A stretch of 64,000 nt of DNA from positions 29,554,543 to 29,618,542 of the forward strand of contig NC_064754.1 of the NCBI RefSeq assembly GCF_011397635.1, written 5' to 3'. The notes under the pieces were generated by a model. That model worked only from the letters and a program-made list of their open reading frames with translations. It was not told where the DNA came from and made no database searches. The position numbers were made by a program, and so were the translations under genes. This stretch comes from Epinephelus fuscoguttatus. Its lineage: Eukaryota > Chordata > Actinopteri > Perciformes > Serranidae. Shown here piece after piece: positions 10,881 to 61,310 of this stretch (the stretch's first letter is position 1; the number at the start of each line of letters is the position of its first letter).

Positions 10881-11560
10881 ACTCTGAGAGAAGGAGGCAG
10901 ACTGGCCCCATGCCACAACAATGTGTGGTATGCAGATCTGAAGTTTTTTTTTTTTTTAGGTGTGTTCAGTAGCATAGGCGGCGCTTTGTGATAGACAGGT
11001 TGAACATGTCGTTAGGTAGTCTGATGTAACTGATACGACTAATATCCAGCCATGCATGAAGATAATTGTTTTTCTGTTTATCCATCATTGTACTCATGCA
11101 GTGCCAGAAAGTCTGCTCTGGCATTTCTAACCACACACAGTCTACACAGCCTTGAGAGAAAATACTTAAAATGAGACTATGTTTCTTTAGATGGAAGACA
11201 TAACACAATCTCCCCCTGATGAATGAAAAGTTGAACTTATAAGCTGTAAAACAAAACCTTTCTTAAAGGTGCAGTGTTCTGGAGAAAAATAGTTGATTGA
11301 TGAGTAATAAATATAAATAGCCTACGATGCATTGATGTGGTGACCAACCCAAAGCATCTTGGGATCAATCAACACTCTTTCTTCTCAGTCACATACTGCA
11401 CCTACCAGCCTTACTTGATCAGGTATGACAAGTACCTTATGGTGGCTAATGTTAGCTACGATAACCAAATATAAGGTAAATATATCTGTGTAACTGACAT
11501 TACTGACTCTGTAGCCCTTTTTAAACAGGAATTGTGCAAATTTGCAGGAAAGCCCAATCA
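10881..11560. other. Intergenic DNA upstream of keratin
   Basis: This is the head side of the keratin gene. I see a poly-T run near 10946-10960 and no supported exon or repeat boundary. Enhancers may lie here but cannot be recognised by eye. Confidence 0.45.
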
Positions 11561-11564
11561 GTCT

Positions 11565-12300
11565 TCTTTCAGCATTGGCAGTATAAAAACAAAATCGGGG
11601 AGTGCAGCGAAATGCCGCCTACCTACTTTTGTTTATACAGAACGTGCCTTTTTCGGGGCAATGGGGGGCGTGAGCAAGTTACAAAACGTGTAGCTCAGCG
11701 TGTGACGTAAACAGTGACGTTCCCGTCATCTGCCAGTTAATGGCCTCTTCGTTTGCGAGGGCAAGGAGGGTGCGCAATTCCTTGTCTCCTCAGTTGCTCA
11801 TCTTTACAGTGTCTGTCAGGTTTGCGTTTCCCTCTTGCTACTAGCTGCTCGCTAATTCCTGCTATCAGTTGCTTCCTGTTTATCCACCGCCAGTGGGTCG
11901 CACGTACGGCATCATCAACAGCTCCTCCCACAAGTCTTCAACAGCCCCTCCCGTTGCGGAAGGCCACCTCGGTCTTGTTAGACTTGAAGGGTTCTGCCAA
12001 TATGTCTACCCTACAAGGCGGAAAACTGGGCACCTCAGATCAACTCACGAATCTGGCTCTGTGTGTCTAAACGCTCGCAGCTTGCCGGCAAAACAGCCCA
12101 ACATTCGCCGAAAATCTGGCAGTGTAAAAGGGGCTTATGACTCTTTTGGTGCTATTGTTAACATTTACTATAGTCCTTTAGTTGTCACTTGTGGCCATAG
12201 GACACCATTCAGCTAAAGCCACATAGCCAAGGTCATCGAAATCTGGCGCTAGGGCAGTGACTTGTGGTGTCAGACACTGACGAAAAAATCCGTCCTTTAA
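11565..12300. repeat. Probable decayed repeat with incidental open frames
   Basis: Two related phrases, GGCAGTATAAAAAC near 11577 and GGCAGTGTAAAAGGGG near 12118, bound a GC-richer stretch. Its overlapping open frames (11753-12070 and 11869-12216) carry no domain I recognise and lack splice or promoter context. I interpret it as repeat-derived rather than a gene, with low certainty. Confidence 0.3.
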
Positions 12301-14804: not shown

Positions 14805-16070
14805 ATCAACATGGATGGATTAATGAACAGGTCTATCGGACCCAGGACCAGGAGCCAAAAGTGTCAGGGTCCTCCCTGGCCTTCACTTTCAAAATGTCAC
14901 CTAAATGATCAAATGCTGACCAGAAAGAGACACAAAATTACCAGAAGGAGACACAAAAAGACCACAAAGCGATGCAAAGGAACTGCAAGGACACAGAAAA
15001 TAACTACAAAAGGGGCAAAACTACTGCAAAGAGAAACAAAATTACCAAAGAAGACACAAAATTACCTCAAGGATATGAAAAACAACTGCAAAGAACTTAA
15101 ACTACCACAAAAAGACACACAATAACTACAAAAAGAGGCAAAACAACCACAAAGAGACAAATAATAACCAAAAAAGACATAAAATTATCTCAAAGAGATA
15201 CAAACAGCTACAAAGACACACAAAATAACTACAAAAGGGACAAAACGACTACAAAAGATCAAAGGATAATTACAAAAAGAGGCAAGACAACCACAGAGAG
15301 GCACGAAATTATCAAGAAAAGACACAAAATACCTTGTAAAAACAGAAAACAACTACAAAGAGATACAAAACTACCAAAAAAAGGACACAAATACCTCAGA
15401 GAAACAGAAAACAACTACAAAGATACACAAAATAAATACGAAACGGCATAAAATACCTCGGAGAAACACAAAACACCTGCAAAGAGACACAAAACGACCA
15501 AAAAAGGACACAAAAAAACTACCACGGAGAAACACAAAAGAACTGCAAAGAGACACAAAAAAATTGAAAAGACACAAAAATACCTTGGAGAAAAACAAAA
15601 CAACTACACGAAGACACAAAACAACCAAAAACAGACACAAAAATATCTTGGAGAAACACAAAACAACTACAAAGAGACATAAATCTACCAAAAAAAGACA
15701 CAAAAACACCTTGCAGAAACACAAAACAACCACAAAATGGCCCAAAAAAAAGGCACAAAAATACCTCAGAGAAACCCAAAACAACTACAAAGAGACACAA
15801 AACGACAAAAAAAGGACACAAAATACCTTGCAGAAACACAAAACAACCAATAAGAGACACAAAACGACCAAGAGATGCAAAGCAACCACAAGGAGATACA
15901 AACTGACCACAAACAATAGAGACAAGAAACCACAAAGAGATAACTTAAAGACGCAAAACAGCAACAAAATAGGCAAAACCAAGACAAAATCTGTGTGTCT
16001 TGCTTCTATGTATGAGAGGTGGAGGTGCTTTTGCATTTCTGGCCTATTCTCTCCTGATCCGCCCATGGTT
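14805..16070 (+). mobile_element. Minisatellite-bearing non-autonomous element, copy 2 (largest)
   Basis: The ends are loosely inverted: ATGGATGGATTAATGAACAG (about 14811-14830), and at the right CTCCTGATCCGCCCATGG (about 16051-16068). Between about 14925 and 15990 lies over 1 kb of degenerate tandem units like AAAGAGACACAAAACGACCA, with a basic period of about 14-16 nt and higher-order units of roughly 30-60 nt. The plus strand is almost free of T and G. Long open frames on both strands here, up to 198 codons, are composition artefacts. Confidence 0.65.
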
Positions 16071-16700
16071 GTTAGTAACAACTGGATACGCAATAACAGG
16101 GCCACTTGTAGAAAATCTATACAGTATGTAAACAGCGCTAATGTCAACCATGCTCTGTAGTATTTTTACTAAAAGGGTAGAGTGTATGTCATGTGGAAAG
16201 TCCAGGCCACATTGTGACGTGGTGAAGGCAATAATCAGCTCCAAGGGATCATTAAAGTATAAACACTTTGCTTTTTTATCAAATTAGATTCTTCATCATC
16301 ATCAAGCTACTTTCTTCTAATGAAAACAGATGTCTAAAGCCTGTACAGTGTTGAAATTAAGGCACACAGATGCTACATGGGAATGGGAAATAAAGGATTG
16401 TCCAACATGTGTCTAATGCTTAGAGAGGAGACATCTGATCAGAGGACGCCAGTTAAGAACACCAGTCTTCAATGGCTACACAGTTACATCAGGTCCTCTG
16501 TATTGGATTTCTTATGTAAACCCATTGACTCGTTTTATTGTTATTGCGGTGCAAAAAAAGGCCTTTCCAGGTAAGTCAGAAGCTTAGTAATGGATTTGTG
16601 GGTGTAGTCATCCGTCACTTCCTGTACGCACATCCTCCCAATGCATCCGTCACCAATCAATCAGTGAACACTGTTATCTGTCTTTGATTTGGGGACATAT
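16071..16700. other. Intergenic DNA and upstream region of gast
   Basis: No exons are supported. The last 200 bp probably contain gastrin promoter elements upstream of the TATA box, but I cannot assign individual factor sites. Confidence 0.4.
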
Positions 16701-16887: not shown

Positions 16888-17359
16888 ATGTCAGGGAAAG
16901 TTATTGTGGTGTTTGCACTGCTGGTTGCACTGCTGGTATCCTGTGCAGCTGGAGAGGCTGAAGACACTCATCTACTACAGCAGCTCCTAGCCAAGAGGGA
17001 GAAAGTGAGAGGCACAGGTGGCAGACAGGAACCGGCGCCTCAGGCTGTCTCTGCACGAATGGAGAGACGGGCACACCTTTCAGAGGATGAACGGGAGATT
17101 ATGACTAAACAAATAATGCAAGCCATCTCAGGTATGCTGTGGGTATGGGTGTGAAAGTTCCTTCTCGCTTCACTTGTGATAACATTTGATAAACGAGTAC
17201 GTGGCCAGAGATCCAAGAGATGCTTAAATGTGTTTACTGAACCCGTGTGTGTGTGGTTCATGTAGGAATGGTTTGTTCACAGAGATGATGAACTCTGAGT
17301 GCATGCTGGATCGGGACTACCAGGGCTGGGTGGACTTCGGACGCCGCAGCACAGAGTGA
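16888..17359 (+). CDS. gast: Preprogastrin (gastrin/CCK family peptide hormone)
   Basis: Secreted gut-hormone precursor. The coding exons are 16888-17131 and 17283-17359; the join is phase 1 and gives 106 aa. Residues 1-23 are a signal peptide (hydrophobic core VIVVFALLVALLVSCAAG). A propeptide with basic residues follows. The bioactive end is DYQGWVDF, then GRR (glycine amide donor and dibasic cleavage site) and the terminal STE. The Tyr next to Asp is a likely sulphation site. The hallmark C-terminus WMDF is here WVDF, which argues for gastrin rather than cck; the Tyr is seven residues from the end, as in CCK. The start is the ATG two bases after the acceptor CACAG. The exon 3 acceptor is CACAG at 17278-17282, because an earlier AG gives a stop. 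It converges with hap1. Confidence 0.93.
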
Positions 17360-22200: not shown

Positions 22201-25200
22201 AAAAAATGAAAAATTTTACTCTTAAGCATAGTTTTAACTGATACAAATTGTCTCATTATTCTTCAGAAGTCAAGAGAGATGTGAGCCAAAATCACAAACC
22301 ATATTATGTTCTGCGTTATTATGCATATGTTGATATGAAAATTAAATCTTGGCATATAATATTATGTTGGCTCAGTGGTTAAAGGTTCAGTGTGGAGTTT
22401 TTTCTTGCGCTAACAAGTTACATTTACATTCATTGTTTACATCCATATTTGCATGCTGTAAGTCTTCTTCATTTCTCGGGAGTGTCAACGCCACCAACTG
22501 TTGATCAGCTTCCTGCCGCTATATCAAATGTATTTGCATATTATCAGCTACAATAGATTTGTCACGTAATCATGTAATTAAACTGTTGCCTTGCTACCCT
22601 TGAAGAATGCTTTTTACTTTTATGAGAAGCGTGGCTTCACATCTGTGGTATTTAATTTGGATCACAGTCTGATGTTTAACGATCAGCGTTCTTTGCCTTG
22701 TTTGGATTGTTACTAACACTCCATATAAACTGGGACAAACTCCAAGAAATCATTAAGACTCAGTCTCACTCTTTTACCTTCCAGAGGTTTGACGATCTGC
22801 AGGCGGTCAGGCAGATAGGACCTGGATCCTCCTGAGGAGCCACAGGAGTGCCGTGAGCTGCCGTTAGAGTAGTTGGTGCCCGTCGATGCTGCTGGACTCG
22901 AGACCAGGCTGTCATTTGGTGTCAGGAAGCCACTGGAGCCCTCGCCCTCCTCGCAGTTTGCTGCCAAGGCATTGAGTTTGCGCTCACGCTCCACATCAAA
23001 GAAAGGCCGCTCAGAGGAATGGTTCTGCTGGCGGGCTGACAGGCTGCGCAAGGCGGCTTCGAGGTCCTGGCCTCCTGGTGTGCCTGGCTGGCCCAGACGC
23101 TTAGGTCCATTAACACTGTGGTGAATAGATGTGACAATGTTTTAGCTGCTTTAATCCTGATGACCTTTAAGTGGGTAAATCATTATCAACTCTTGCTGTG
23201 AAAACATTTCAACGTAGTCAGGAAGGTTTTTAAAATGACCAAATATGCGTATAAAATGATCAAAAATATATCTGTAATTTTGCATGACCTCATAATCAAA
23301 CACACCTGTTGTCCTCTTTGTGAGAATTACTGCAGCTGGGCTTATCTTCCAGTGTAAGGCTGGCATTGTCGGACCCATAGTAGCTGGTTCGAGGGGTGCT
23401 GGTGCAACTGGAGCGAGTGGACGGCGGGCTGGAGCCTGGCAGCCCTGGGGAGTGGCACCGAGAGCGCAGCCTCACAGTTTTGTTCACCACCTTCACTGTT
23501 TCAAACACACGCCACGGATGGTTCCTGTCAGGAGAAAAAAAGGGCGTGAGCAGGCGAAAAAGATTACACACAATCTATATCATTCATCTCAGTAGCAGAA
23601 CATACAACCCATAATGCAATCACTGCATTTTTTTAAACCGCAGTCTGCAAATTGTATGAATTATTATGATGTTAGAAGCAGAGAAGTGCTGTGTATATCC
23701 AGTTTATCACTGAGACACAAGCAGGGCAGCATGTCAGAGGCTAGGAAACAGTTGTAGTTAAATGTACAGGACCACTTTGAGTAAGTTACTTAGACGACTA
23801 AAGGATAGGTATGAGGTTTGCCATTACCAACTTTTATTCCCTTGTGTTTTAAAGTTGCTGCTTTCCATCATGTAACAGACTTTTCAAATCTCTCCATATC
23901 CATATGTTTTGTTTAGTATGCAATATTCTTTACCTTGTAAGCTAGTGGTAATGGAGGAGGGATGCTCTTTGTTGTTTATGCAGGGATGTCACACCCATTC
24001 TGTTTTAAGGGAACACATCCTCAAACTGAATGAGCATAGCAGTTTCAAGTATAACCAACATTAGGGTTAGACTGAGTCCATTAGTTAAAGTCCACATGTC
24101 CACCTGCCCTGATTTATTTCAATGTACTCCCATTCCTTAAGTGATTTTGAATGACGGACAATGTGAGAAATCTGTGATTTTTTAATCACTGGAGCCCAAA
24201 ATCAGTTGTGCACTTGTGGAAAAAAAAACAGATGTGTTCAGTATCTACTTTGTTCTATTCCAGTTGTTAAAAAACATTAAATAACACTGGGGGTTGCATC
24301 ATCTTTGAATTTTTTTTTTAATTTATTTCGTTTGGAAAGTAATATCCTTGGGAATCAAAATAATAAGCTGTACTGCACTAGGACTGTGTGGGTTTGGTTT
24401 GGTTTGATCCGATTTGATTGACAGTTCCCTGGCACTATAAACAAGCAACCCCAAAACTTTAATCATGTCTTCATTGAAATGTTGCTAAATCCAGATTGTT
24501 GGATGGAAATACCGTGACAGAGCAGAGACAAAAACATAAATGCAGACCTCTAATATGAAACACCCAAAAGCATGTTCGCTAATTTTAAGAAGTGATTAGG
24601 AAAATAGGTTTTCAGAGCCTTTAAGACTTCTCGTTCACTATCACAAAATAAAGTGCATTAAAGTGATCCAAAAATCTTAATTCCAACTGCTGTTTCTAAA
24701 GACAACACTCAAATTTGAACCTCAATTTTAGAATTAACTCTTCCTCAGCATTTAAACAAACACAAACAACAACACACACTTTGACTCAGAGCCTGGACCA
24801 ACAGTGTATTTTAAATGAAAACAAATTTATGCTACAGTCATCTAGTTAGCCAGCTGCTTCCTTACACAGTATCCTACAATATCTTTGTTTAGTAGACATG
24901 GGGAGCAAACAGACGAGAAAAAACAAGGTAAGATTTTCTTAAATATGTAGATAGAACTCAGCGAACTCAGCTCAATAAATAAATAACCACATTGTAAAAC
25001 CAGTAAGATACAAATACAATAGACTTGAAGCTAAATTGTTGTTTAAATGAAAAGTAGCTCTTTATGACTACATACAGTTTTGTTTGACAACAGATGTAAA
25101 AGGCTACAACACATTTACTGTGTGATTGTGATTTCACCCCTAACGTTACTTGTGTATTTCTGTCTTTAAGAGGAAGCAGTGTGGTATTGTTGCTAAACAA

Positions 25201-28200
25201 CACAAGCCAAGTGCATGCAGGCCAGCTGAGAACACAGGAGTGCTTGCACTTCAACAAAGCATTGAATCAGCTAATGAAACCATCCAGAAGCTGTCCTCAA
25301 TAAACACCAAACTAAAGAGGCAGGTTCAGGAACTCCAGCACATGGAGAACCAATGGGTGGTGGAAAAGAGTCAACTCCTGCATAGAAACAAAACTACACA
25401 GAGGATACTGGAGCGGAAGTACTTCAAGGCTCTTGATGAGATCAACAGGTTGGAGGAGATTTTGAAGAACACAGAAATCAACAAAGCTTTCCATTACAAA
25501 GAGAATGAAACAGGGGAACCAGTGGAGACACAAATACCTATGGAGCTTATAGACATGCATGAGAGGAGCCAGGAGCAGGAAGTTGTGATAATGAAAAAGG
25601 AAAAGCTGGTTGGAAGGTTCCTGCTGGCGACGAGTAGAGTATTTACAAAAAGAAGATGTACATACTTAGAGCGAGAGACAGCCGAAAATCCAACAGGAGG
25701 CCCAGGAGGTCAGGATCAAGAAGGAGCAGAGGACTGAGAGGAGGTATGTTTGTTTCATTTTAACTTACACTGATTATTTAGCTCACTAGATTCTAACTCA
25801 TCCTTTAAAAGACAAATTTAAATTTACTGTGATGTATCTTCTTTTTTCAGGAGCTTGTTTTGAGGAAAAAGCTTACCTGCTTCCTCTCCTTCATCTCTTG
25901 TCTCAGCTAGATCAGTGATTAACACTGCAGCCTCAGAGGAAATAAAATGTACTAGTTTATTATTAAGTTGTTTATATGTTCATTGTTTGACCAGTGATCA
26001 CAAGATATTTACTTAAAGTATGGAATTATTAGCAGCAACATTTATACCTAAAATATCAACACTAAAAGTCATCCTGCAGAAGAATTGCTCCTGTGAGTGA
26101 TATTATAGATGGCATTATAGTGATGCATCAATGTAGCAGCATTTTACTGCTGAAGCTGGATGAGGTGGCGCTGGTTTATCTGCTTTATAAGGTAGTTTAG
26201 TCCAGTGATTCACAAACTAGGGGTGGTGTCCCCTCCAAAGTGTGACTATATATGTCTAACAGAGTTGTGAGATGATTAATGGGGAAGGACAAAAACAGAA
26301 GAAAAGAAAAACTAAAATCTACTACATAAATTAGTTTTGTTTTGGGTGGCGTTTCTCCCTGTTTTTGTATAAATAGCAGATCATTTTTCCTCTTTGTCAG
26401 CTTAAACAATCTGAGAAGTTTAGAGGGGAAATGTCTAATAACTCACTAACATTGAAGAACACAACATTTCTTCAAGGGGTTTCTGTATTTGCCGAAGAGG
26501 TTAGCAACAGCTGGTTTAATCTCTAATAGCAAGAAGTTTTTGAAAGCTTGTGATTTATGTAAATCACAGTATTTAAAGTAACTAATAACTACAGCTGTCA
26601 GATGAATGTATTGGAGTAAAAAGTACTGCCGAAATTTAGTGAAACAAAAAGTATGAAGTGGCATGAATCGGAAATACTCAAGTACAGTGTCTAGGCACTT
26701 GTACTTAACCTAAATAAATGTAAAGTAAATGTAGTTAGCTGCTAACTATCACGGAGTGTGTGTCCCACTTGGTGTATTTTACTGATGTAAAGACAGTAAA
26801 TATAGCATCTTAAAATAATCTGTTATATCGTCTGTAAATATCACACTTCAATATGAGGCAGTGGTATATTCTTAAGTATTTGTATCAACCTTGGAAAAGC
26901 CAAAAATCCGAACCAAAACACACCACGATTCAAGCAGTAAAGGAAGTCAGTCTGTTGCCTCCCCACATGTCCTGTATACTGTTATGAAAGACATTTTATA
27001 TTCAGCCTCAGCTGTCTATCATATAATCTCAAAGTAAATGGTTTGGGTTAAGGTTTGGACCAACCCTGAGACTGTTAGAGTAAGAGTAGCAGCTTAGTAC
27101 TGCGTCCTATCAGAGAATAGCAACTGTAGTCACTTCGGATTTCCACCAGTTACAACAGATTCCAACAATGACAAGTGTCATGGAGGAGAAAAAAAAGACA
27201 GCCACAGAAAATACCTAAAGCCAGTCCTGCAGCATATCCCACTTTCTGCTGCCCATCTGTGTACTCAGACAAACATGTATTTTCACTGAAACATGGCAAG
27301 ATAGAGTGCTGCCTGCTCAGTCCTCCTGCATCATGATGTCATGTACCTCGAGTGAAACACACAGGGGGTTTAACACTCCAAAGACAGACTGTGAGTTGGG
27401 TTTTTATTGTATATAAACAAGACCAGGCAGGGCATTTAAGCAGCAAGCAAGTCTTGATGACTCACATTAAGTAAATATCCTGGGTTTTACCAGGATAGAA
27501 ATTGAATGTTTAGGGAGAAGTGTAAGAAAAGCCTTCCACACACACACACACACAAAATCAGACTCACTTGTACTCTGAGGGTGCCGGGGTGTCCAGGCCT
27601 TTGCGGAAAGTGCCCTCTATCTCAGCTGCCAGTGAGTCCATGGGGAGGACAGAGGCAAGTGCAGTGTAACGCTGCACCGTGCTGTTGGGTAGGCTCTTAT
27701 TCCGCAGGTTCTTAATGTCCTCTCGGGCCTCGCGGAGCATGTCCTCACACTGCGAGTACTTGTCCCGCAGGTCTTTGAGCTGCAGACAGGGGGAGACATA
27801 TCTGTCAAACTGTAGTACAGGAAGAAAACACTGACCATTCACAACGTCAGGGCTGAGTATTTACATATTATGGCTAAAGTATGCTTCTGCAAGGATACAC
27901 AAAGATAACATGTCTGTGTGGGGAGGCAGAGAAGGGCTTTCTGGGTAACCGTGTGAAGGCTTGCAGAGTAGCTGATTTTCAGATTAACAAGATCTTAACT
28001 ACACATCCTCTGGATCTGCACTACTGTGAGATACAAAGACCTAATCAAACTCACAGACTATGCTTCTATAGTGTGATCTTAGAAAATCAAAAATGCAACC
28101 TCCATAAACAGCACCTCAGTGCACAGGGAAATATTGGTGGAGGTCTAAAAACACTCCACTGTATCTCTGCCCCTTTCTAACAAACATAAGTCATTGCTTT

Positions 28201-60279: not shown

Positions 60280-61310
60280 AAAGCACTTTGTACAGTGGTT
60301 AGCACCGGCTACTCCAGCTTCCTCCCACAATCCAAACACGTGAGGCCCGTTTCCACCGCAGGAACTTCGGGGTGATTTTGCGGGCTGGGGCCGTTGGTGC
60401 GTGTCTCCACCGCAGGAACCACCCCCGAAGGACAGAGTTCCGGAACTTTTACGGAGGCTAAACAAGTCCCTGCCTCGGGGTAGGTACTCTGAACGGCCCC
60501 GAAAGACTCCTGGCTGGGGCTTGGGGATTACTTGGTGCTGATTGGATATACTCAAGGAGGGATGTGACGTCAACAGAAAGCAACAAAATAGCCGGCATTT
60601 TTAAAACTCAGCAGACGAGGATTAGCTCGTTCATATAGCTTTTGCTGCCATGTAAAAAAAAACCTCACTAAATGGCCCGTGAAAAAATTATTCTTTCCAG
60701 CGGATGTCTTAGTTACAACATGATTGAGCTAGCAAAGCAGTTTTGTGTTGATATGTGTGGTATTTATTCAGTTTTGGGAAATCACGATGTCTAGAAAGCA
60801 TTGGCTGACAGGGACAGCAAACAGCAGCAGCAAAACTAACATCAGGATGTCATCTGTTAAAAGCCTCCCGTTGTCGGATACGACATGAAACTACTCCAGT
60901 TAGCTCAATCATGTTGTAACTAAGACGTCCGCTGGGAAAAATATTTTTTTCACGGGCCATTTAGTGAGTTATTACAGACACCGCTATCGGCTAACGGCGT
61001 CCCTACGTCGCCCTGGTCAAAATGGTCGTGCAACGATTACGTCACATCAAGAGGCAGCCCGTAACTTTACAGGAACCTTCCTCGTACTCCGCTCTCTCAG
61101 TGGAGACACGGCGGTTGAGAGGGCCGAACGAGAGGACATTCCTGTAGTAGTTCCTGCCCCCCAAATAGTACCAGGAACTTCTTCAGTGGAAACAGGCCTA
61201 TGCAGGTTAGGTTAATTGGTGACTCTAAATTGCATGAATGGTTGTCTATCTCCATGTGTCAGCCCTGTGATAGTCTGGTGACCTGTCCAGGGTGTACCTG
61301 TTTTCCTGCA
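60280..61310. repeat. Common teleost repeat, interrupted by a fold-back element
   Basis: The left half ends CTTCCTCCCACAATCCAAAC (about 60318-60337). The right half resumes at 61200 with ATGCAGGTTAGGTTAATTGG, then TGACTCTAAATTGCATG and CCTGTCCAGGGTGTACC. Together they restore the order of an abundant teleost repeat (TCCCACAGTCCAAAGACATG, then CAGGTTAATTGG). Confidence 0.7.
60343..61199. mobile_element. Long fold-back element (857 bp)
   Basis: The ends AGGCCCGTTTCCACCGCAGG and GTGGAAACAGGCCT are inverted. Inner pairs include CTCACTAAATGGCCCGTGAA (about 60664-60683), with its complement near 60950-60969, and TTAGTTACAACATGATTGAG (60710-60729), with its complement near 60898-60917. The centre is near 60.8 kb. 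No transposase is present. Short flanks GTG/ATG may be a diverged 3-bp duplication. Confidence 0.75.

Follow-up and report, generated by a model that had tools for sequence, protein, structure and literature searches.

Does an intron of the hap1 gene of the fish Epinephelus fuscoguttatus harbour a second protein-coding gene on the opposite strand and, if so, does that gene still make a protein? We address this question for a stretch of 64,000 nucleotides (nt) of contig NC_064754.1 (NCBI RefSeq assembly GCF_011397635.1, positions 29,554,543 to 29,618,542 of the forward strand), which we call the window and whose own numbering is used throughout. An initial annotation of these letters had proposed a nested antisense gene for a coiled-coil protein, possibly decaying, and the position of this candidate (24898-25965 on the + strand, wholly inside one intron of hap1, which lies on the - strand), its three-base periodicity, its codon score and its heptad score all support the nested antisense coiled-coil gene. 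We find that exon 2 of the candidate bears the statistical marks of coiled-coil-coding DNA, and that the coding signal likely switches frame near 25634-25641. Our reading of the whole, which we favour tentatively, is that of a genuine three-exon antisense gene that has been frameshifted and still yields an altered protein.

Coding signal in exon 2

The three-base periodicity of 25171-25640 is 4.96. Only 4 of 1271 overlapping test windows across the whole 64 kilobases (kb) reach this value, all of them overlapping the keratin gene, and in presumed noncoding stretches none of 293 does so (maximum 2.93). The codon score of exon 2, based on a human codon table, is 25.8, which is equalled in 11 of 1269 test windows of the whole 64 kb, all of them over either the first exon of keratin or the hap1 exon 22778-23115; among 488 test windows of presumed noncoding DNA the maximum is 14.6. 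These noncoding stretches were chosen by hand and include nothing above 58.8 kb, and both scores were later repeated over the whole window. Test windows in the periodicity, codon-score and frame controls overlap and hence are not independent. Periodicity is also an imperfect marker of coding, since one true hap1 exon piece does not have it (249 of 1000 shuffles as strong).

The frame that continues exon 1 into exon 2 (frame 0) encodes 198 amino acids (aa), and their heptad score on an ad hoc scale is reached by 2 of 1000 shuffles; residues 31-160 taken alone are equalled by 16 of 1000. The predicted product has the heptad pattern beyond composition that is expected of a coiled-coil protein.

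Probable change of reading frame near the end of exon 2

The coiled-coil character was initially said to move to another frame near 25640. Base composition by codon position bears this claim out, whereas a codon table and the heptad score of the shifted tail do not. The compositional test was trained in three ways, namely on the head of exon 2, on ten pieces of hap1 and keratin exons and on five coiled-coil pieces. With the head model (exon 2 up to 25610), the segment 25641-25743 favours the +1 frame by 22.6 bits, a margin that none of 5000 base shuffles attained, and allowing a single change of frame brings a gain of 24.4 bits (0 of 2000 codon bootstraps). The ten-piece model places the tail in the +1 frame by 16 bits and sets the best change point at 25634 with a gain of 22.5 bits, again equalled by none of 2000 codon bootstraps; the largest such gain among 172 overlapping pieces of true coding sequence is 16.8 bits. 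The coiled-coil exon model gives the +1 frame by 29 bits, picks the right frame in all 129 overlapping control windows and holds the candidate in frame 0 in all seven windows starting from 25222 on. This last model, comprising 5 of the 10 exon pieces, was chosen post hoc, by protein type, after the mixed-exon control had proved noisy. The tail is itself periodic, with 8 of 1000 shuffles as strong.

The nonsense codon that the initial annotation reported in the old frame is present, as a TAG at 25667-25669 in the +1 frame. Two further accounts of this part of the sequence were considered and rejected. A second shift, into frame +2 over 25628-25667, adds only 7 bits. A tiny intron that would explain both the frame change and the TAG is not supported, as the seven GT sites in 25561-25700 all score below zero as donors; the next GT site, at 25709, has a donor score of 3.4. 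The GT...AG stretch 25634-25669 measures 36 nt, which is far too short for an intron and below the vertebrate minimum, and its length is a multiple of three, so that splicing there would leave the frame unchanged.

Anatomy and neighbourhood of the candidate gene

The third exon and the AATAAA signal of the proposed gene are present, as is the 198-aa frame of exons 1 and 2 (Table 1). Exon 2 spans 25171-25743, and frame 0 is free of stops from 25144 to 25734 and ends at a TGA (25735-25737). Upstream, an in-frame stop at 24847 is separated from the ATG at 24898 by 16 codons. The AATAAA lies at 25941-25946 in exon 3, the end of which (25965) is taken from the initial annotation and not from a determined cleavage site; the proposed acceptor of this exon stands, although its first base is 25851 and not 25852. 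Strong splice sites had been claimed for the two in-phase exons. By splice-site weight tables, this is true of the exon 1 donor GTAAGA (top 0.3% of 7889 GT sites), of the intron 2 donor GAG/GTATGT after 25743 (top 0.7% of GT sites) and of the intron 2 acceptor TTTTTTCAG/GAG (top 0.1% of AG sites), and untrue of the exon 2 acceptor. When 1240 regularly placed points on both strands of the window were surveyed for such an architecture, 37 had a comparable donor with an open in-frame upstream ATG; 28 of these also had a comparable downstream acceptor, and 3 of the 28 an AATAAA as well.

Table 1. Coordinates of the candidate gene, of the flanking host exons and of a neighbouring gene in the window
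Feature	Position	Strand	Basis or remark
Exon 1, coding part	24898..24927	+	Ten codons from ATG 24898, MGSKQTRKNK; then donor AAG/GTAAGA
Intron 1	24928..25170	+	243 nt, phase 0; ends in acceptor TTTAAG, then AGG at 25171
Exon 2, frame-0 coiled-coil coding part	25171..25633	+	Periodicity, codon score, coiled-coil exon model from 25222 on, heptad score
Frame-0 C-terminal tail	25634..25734	+	About 34 aa, unlike the putative ancestral frame; change point 25634, with 25631-25641 nearly equal
+1-frame reading of the end of exon 2	25634..25743	+	Coiled-coil-like: RRVEYLQKEDVHT, stop, SERQPKIQQEAQEVRIKKEQRTERR; last R completed by exon 3
Intron 2	25744..25850	+	107 nt, GTATGT...TTTTTTCAG; splice-site ranks
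Exon 3	25851..25965	+	+1 frame: R completed, then SLF and a stop (TGA 25861-25863); frame 0: 3' untranslated region
hap1 exon, one flank of host intron	23306..23524	-	HAP1_N and Milton matches of the joined protein; splice sites
hap1 exon, other flank of host intron	27568..27779	-	Same joined hap1 protein; splice sites
Gastrin/CCK-family gene	16888-17359	+	Adjoins hap1; product ends ...DYQGWVDFGRRSTE

The host is identified through Pfam, where the joined hap1 exons match HAP1_N (E 2.1e-104) and Milton (E 8.1e-8); the hap1 and gastrin pieces scanned were exons joined by hand, and the consecutiveness of the two exons flanking the candidate rests on our reading of the sequence and on the joined Pfam match. 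The candidate lies between two consecutive host exons and on the other strand, as a nested opposite-strand gene does. Besides hap1, the window contains on the - strand a type I keratin-like gene, which was assigned by eye, and on the + strand the gastrin/CCK gene, for which the Pfam Gastrin match has an E-value of 5e-10. This content resembles teleost DNA. The order keratin, gastrin, hap1 matches that of the vertebrate HAP1 neighbourhood in PMC5064798, in which gast is reported absent from the zebrafish hap1 region; the presence of gastrin here indicates that this fish has kept a tetrapod-like neighbourhood. That paper does not use the term 'nested'. Opposite-strand nested intronic genes of animals, the kind of locus to which our candidate corresponds, are described in PMC12274878, so that the kind of object is already known. 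The present gene in the hap1 intron did not turn up in a literature search, which is a weak guide to absence.

Three other regions of the window deserve a brief description. Positions 14919-16160 form a long degenerate tandem array of CAAAGAGACACAAAA-like repeats, the units of which measure 21 nt and roughly 62 and 120 nt, and a 296-codon open frame inside it (15270-16160, + strand) is a long frame without a gene. The region 60300-61200 has high codon-score frames on both strands and contains a palindromic element with 73-nt arms (60659-60731 and 60901-60973) that are 92% complementary, perhaps a non-autonomous DNA transposon. The top coding score among the 488 presumed noncoding test windows comes from 11550-12200, where a 123-aa frame has no Pfam match and the region has no inverted repeat.

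Possible relatives and fate of the candidate gene

Three human proteins, in provisional versions of their sequences, were compared with the candidate. CFAP157, a ciliary coiled-coil protein, resembles it in having a coiled coil preceded by a short, basic N-terminus, and aligns colinearly with candidate residues 48-197 at a raw local score of 81. None of 200 simple shuffles scored as well; of 500 block shuffles at each block size, 13 did so with blocks of seven residues and 16 with blocks of fourteen. However, reversed CFAP157 still scores 71, the best domain in phmmer with the HMMER bias correction reaches only 1.5 bits, and CFAP157 is much longer than the candidate. The first 294 residues of this CFAP157 version themselves match no Pfam family above cut-off, so Pfam is uninformative on this kinship either way. 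We regard the resemblance to this provisional sequence as a weak lead only. BBOF1 (DUF4515, PF14988) likewise combines a basic N-terminus with a coiled coil and gives a raw score of 80 (5 of 200 simple shuffles as good), but that score is reached by 28 of 500 and 70 of 500 block shuffles. PF14988 is absent from the Pfam matches of both versions of the candidate at a limit of E 10, with HMMER filters discarding most matches above about E 0.1, whereas the provisional BBOF1 sequence itself gives 3.1e-47. Finally, the Leu_zip family of LZTFL1 (PF15294) matches the candidate weakly (E 0.0053, 16.8 bits). Membership was rejected, as the gathering cut-off is 28.2 bits and the match is lost in the read-through version; the pairwise score with the provisional LZTFL1 sequence is no better than that of shuffles (38 of 200).

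Several results weigh against the reading of a frameshifted gene that still yields a protein. Some concern the frame test itself. When each exon was left out of training in turn, another frame won in 127 of the 415 windows that were 90 nt long, and the 16-bit margin was reached by 17 of the 375 that were 102 nt long. Leaving out windows of the first part of exon 2 in turn, we saw the wrong frame win 11 times out of 113, with margins as large as 20.6 bits. In three non-coil pieces rich in Ser, Gly or Pro, the head model often chose the wrong frame (38 of 40, 61 of 69 and 37 of 79 windows), and on the other seven exon pieces the wrong frame never won. No significant support for the frame change came from a codon-table test of the tail, which 159 of 2000 and 404 of 2000 shuffles equalled, or from the heptad score of the tail in the +1 frame, which 265 of 1000 shuffles reached. 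In addition, the opening stretch of exon 2, roughly 100 nt, agrees better with the +1 frame than with frame 0 (25171-25272, by 12 bits in the coiled-coil model). The heptad score is low over the same positions, and the fit may reflect composition and a non-coiled N-terminus or may mark a second irregularity.

Other adverse results concern whether there is a coding exon at all. The length of the open frame is unremarkable, with an equal or longer stop-free run in 2 of 60 simulated 64-kb sequences. Ranked by best-segment codon score, the candidate comes only 18th among 275 frames of at least 60 aa; it is outranked not just by known exons but by shadow frames and by unassigned ones at 60.3 and 62.3 kb. 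Synonymous codon preference is -0.006 per codon, compared with 0.26-0.55 in five hap1 and keratin exon pieces. The coding score per codon of all exon 2 (0.135) lies below all 14 hap1, keratin and gastrin pieces (0.138-0.678), and that of 25171-25640 (0.160) exceeds just one of these 14. C occupies the third codon position at a frequency of 0.17 in the candidate and 0.36 in its neighbours. This scarcity of C at third positions could account for the low scores, as could weak expression or decay. The exon 2 acceptor TTTAAG is weak, as 8.5% of 8403 AG sites are equally good.

Searches for relatives were similarly unrewarding. Pfam has no match above its cut-offs for the 198-aa product or for the read-through version, and nothing in PDB falls below E 0.3 (best 0.33, and 1.7 in another search); that no family could be assigned, as was first stated, holds only for these two collections as searched. 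Five pattern matches in a viral collection and 85 in a prokaryote collection, where fish sequences are not expected, included none confirmed as a relative.

How, then, might the locus be explained otherwise? A serious possibility, to which we would give real weight, is a young pseudogene that has lost its function in this lineage, in which the frameshift and the TAG would be early lesions and exon 2 would still be open only because neutral evolution has been brief. The frame switch and the TAG in the old frame speak for this, as do the near-zero synonymous preference, the weak exon 2 acceptor and the irregularity that the beginning of exon 2 may contain. A unitary pseudogene is defined by a disabling change relative to an intact ancestor; here the frame switch and the old-frame TAG are seen in this one sequence. 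Yet about 154 codons of exon 2 are still open in frame 0 with strong periodicity, three of the four splice sites are strong, and the stop reached after the frameshift sits where decay of the messenger RNA (mRNA) is not expected. A sequencing or assembly error, by which a living gene intact in the +1 frame would be disguised by one or two wrong reference bases, strikes us as improbable. One single-base insertion or deletion near 25634-25641 would suffice for the frame switch, but a second error would then be needed to account for the +1-frame TAG at 25667. The ten hap1 and keratin training pieces are free of stops, which is a mild point against such errors, as the pieces were hand-picked and trimmed as open exons.

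That there is no gene, and that a chance open frame in purine-rich intronic DNA has misled us, we consider very improbable. This would agree with the simulated frame lengths, with the missing homologue in the Pfam, PDB, viral and prokaryote collections, with the absence of synonymous preference and with the best-segment scores of other frames without a known gene. Against it stand the heptad pattern, the combined splice and polyadenylation architecture, and a periodicity and whole-exon codon score that nothing in the 64 kb equals except windows over the exons of keratin or hap1. A retrocopy or repeat was rejected, since introns are present and the repeats amount to three weak two-copy direct ones, with no inverted repeat. 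A structured RNA was rejected as well, with no Rfam family reaching its gathering threshold in 23500-27600.

Our favoured reading of a frameshifted but translatable gene would run as follows. The ancestral product would have been a rod-shaped coiled-coil protein of about 204 aa whose final residues, ...RTERRSLF, run into exon 3. This is what the +1 frame yields if the TAG is set aside, as that frame then crosses the junction and ends R-SLF-stop. An insertion or deletion would then have put the last part of exon 2 in frame 0, giving a 198-aa protein with an intact coiled coil and about 34 changed C-terminal residues. The frame-0 TGA sits 6 nt upstream of the last exon junction. Nonsense-mediated decay follows a rule of 50-55 nt, so this mRNA should escape it. 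Once the frame had shifted, the TAG at 25667 was no longer read and thus need not be a second blow; it may well have arisen after the shift, and probably did. These points slightly favour an altered, translatable gene over an outright dead one. The protein is predicted to be most likely a small oligomerising scaffold, the coiled coil of which would pair with itself or with a partner, while its very basic N-terminus MGSKQTRKNKRKQ, which motif rules mark as a possible myristoylation site or nuclear signal, would target it. Bolder still, and in our view unlikely, is the proposal that an unclassified vertebrate coiled-coil family resides in antisense orientation in the hap1 intron of fish and that a frameshift escaping nonsense-mediated decay gave the functional protein of one lineage a new tail.

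Whichever state applies, the locus is a small nested gene of the sort that automatic annotation can overlook. If it is dead, it would date the loss of a nested gene and would allow one to ask whether antisense transcription affected hap1. If it is alive, it would add an unclassified gene to those of vertebrates and give a clear example of the replacement of a protein tail by a frameshift that mRNA surveillance should spare.

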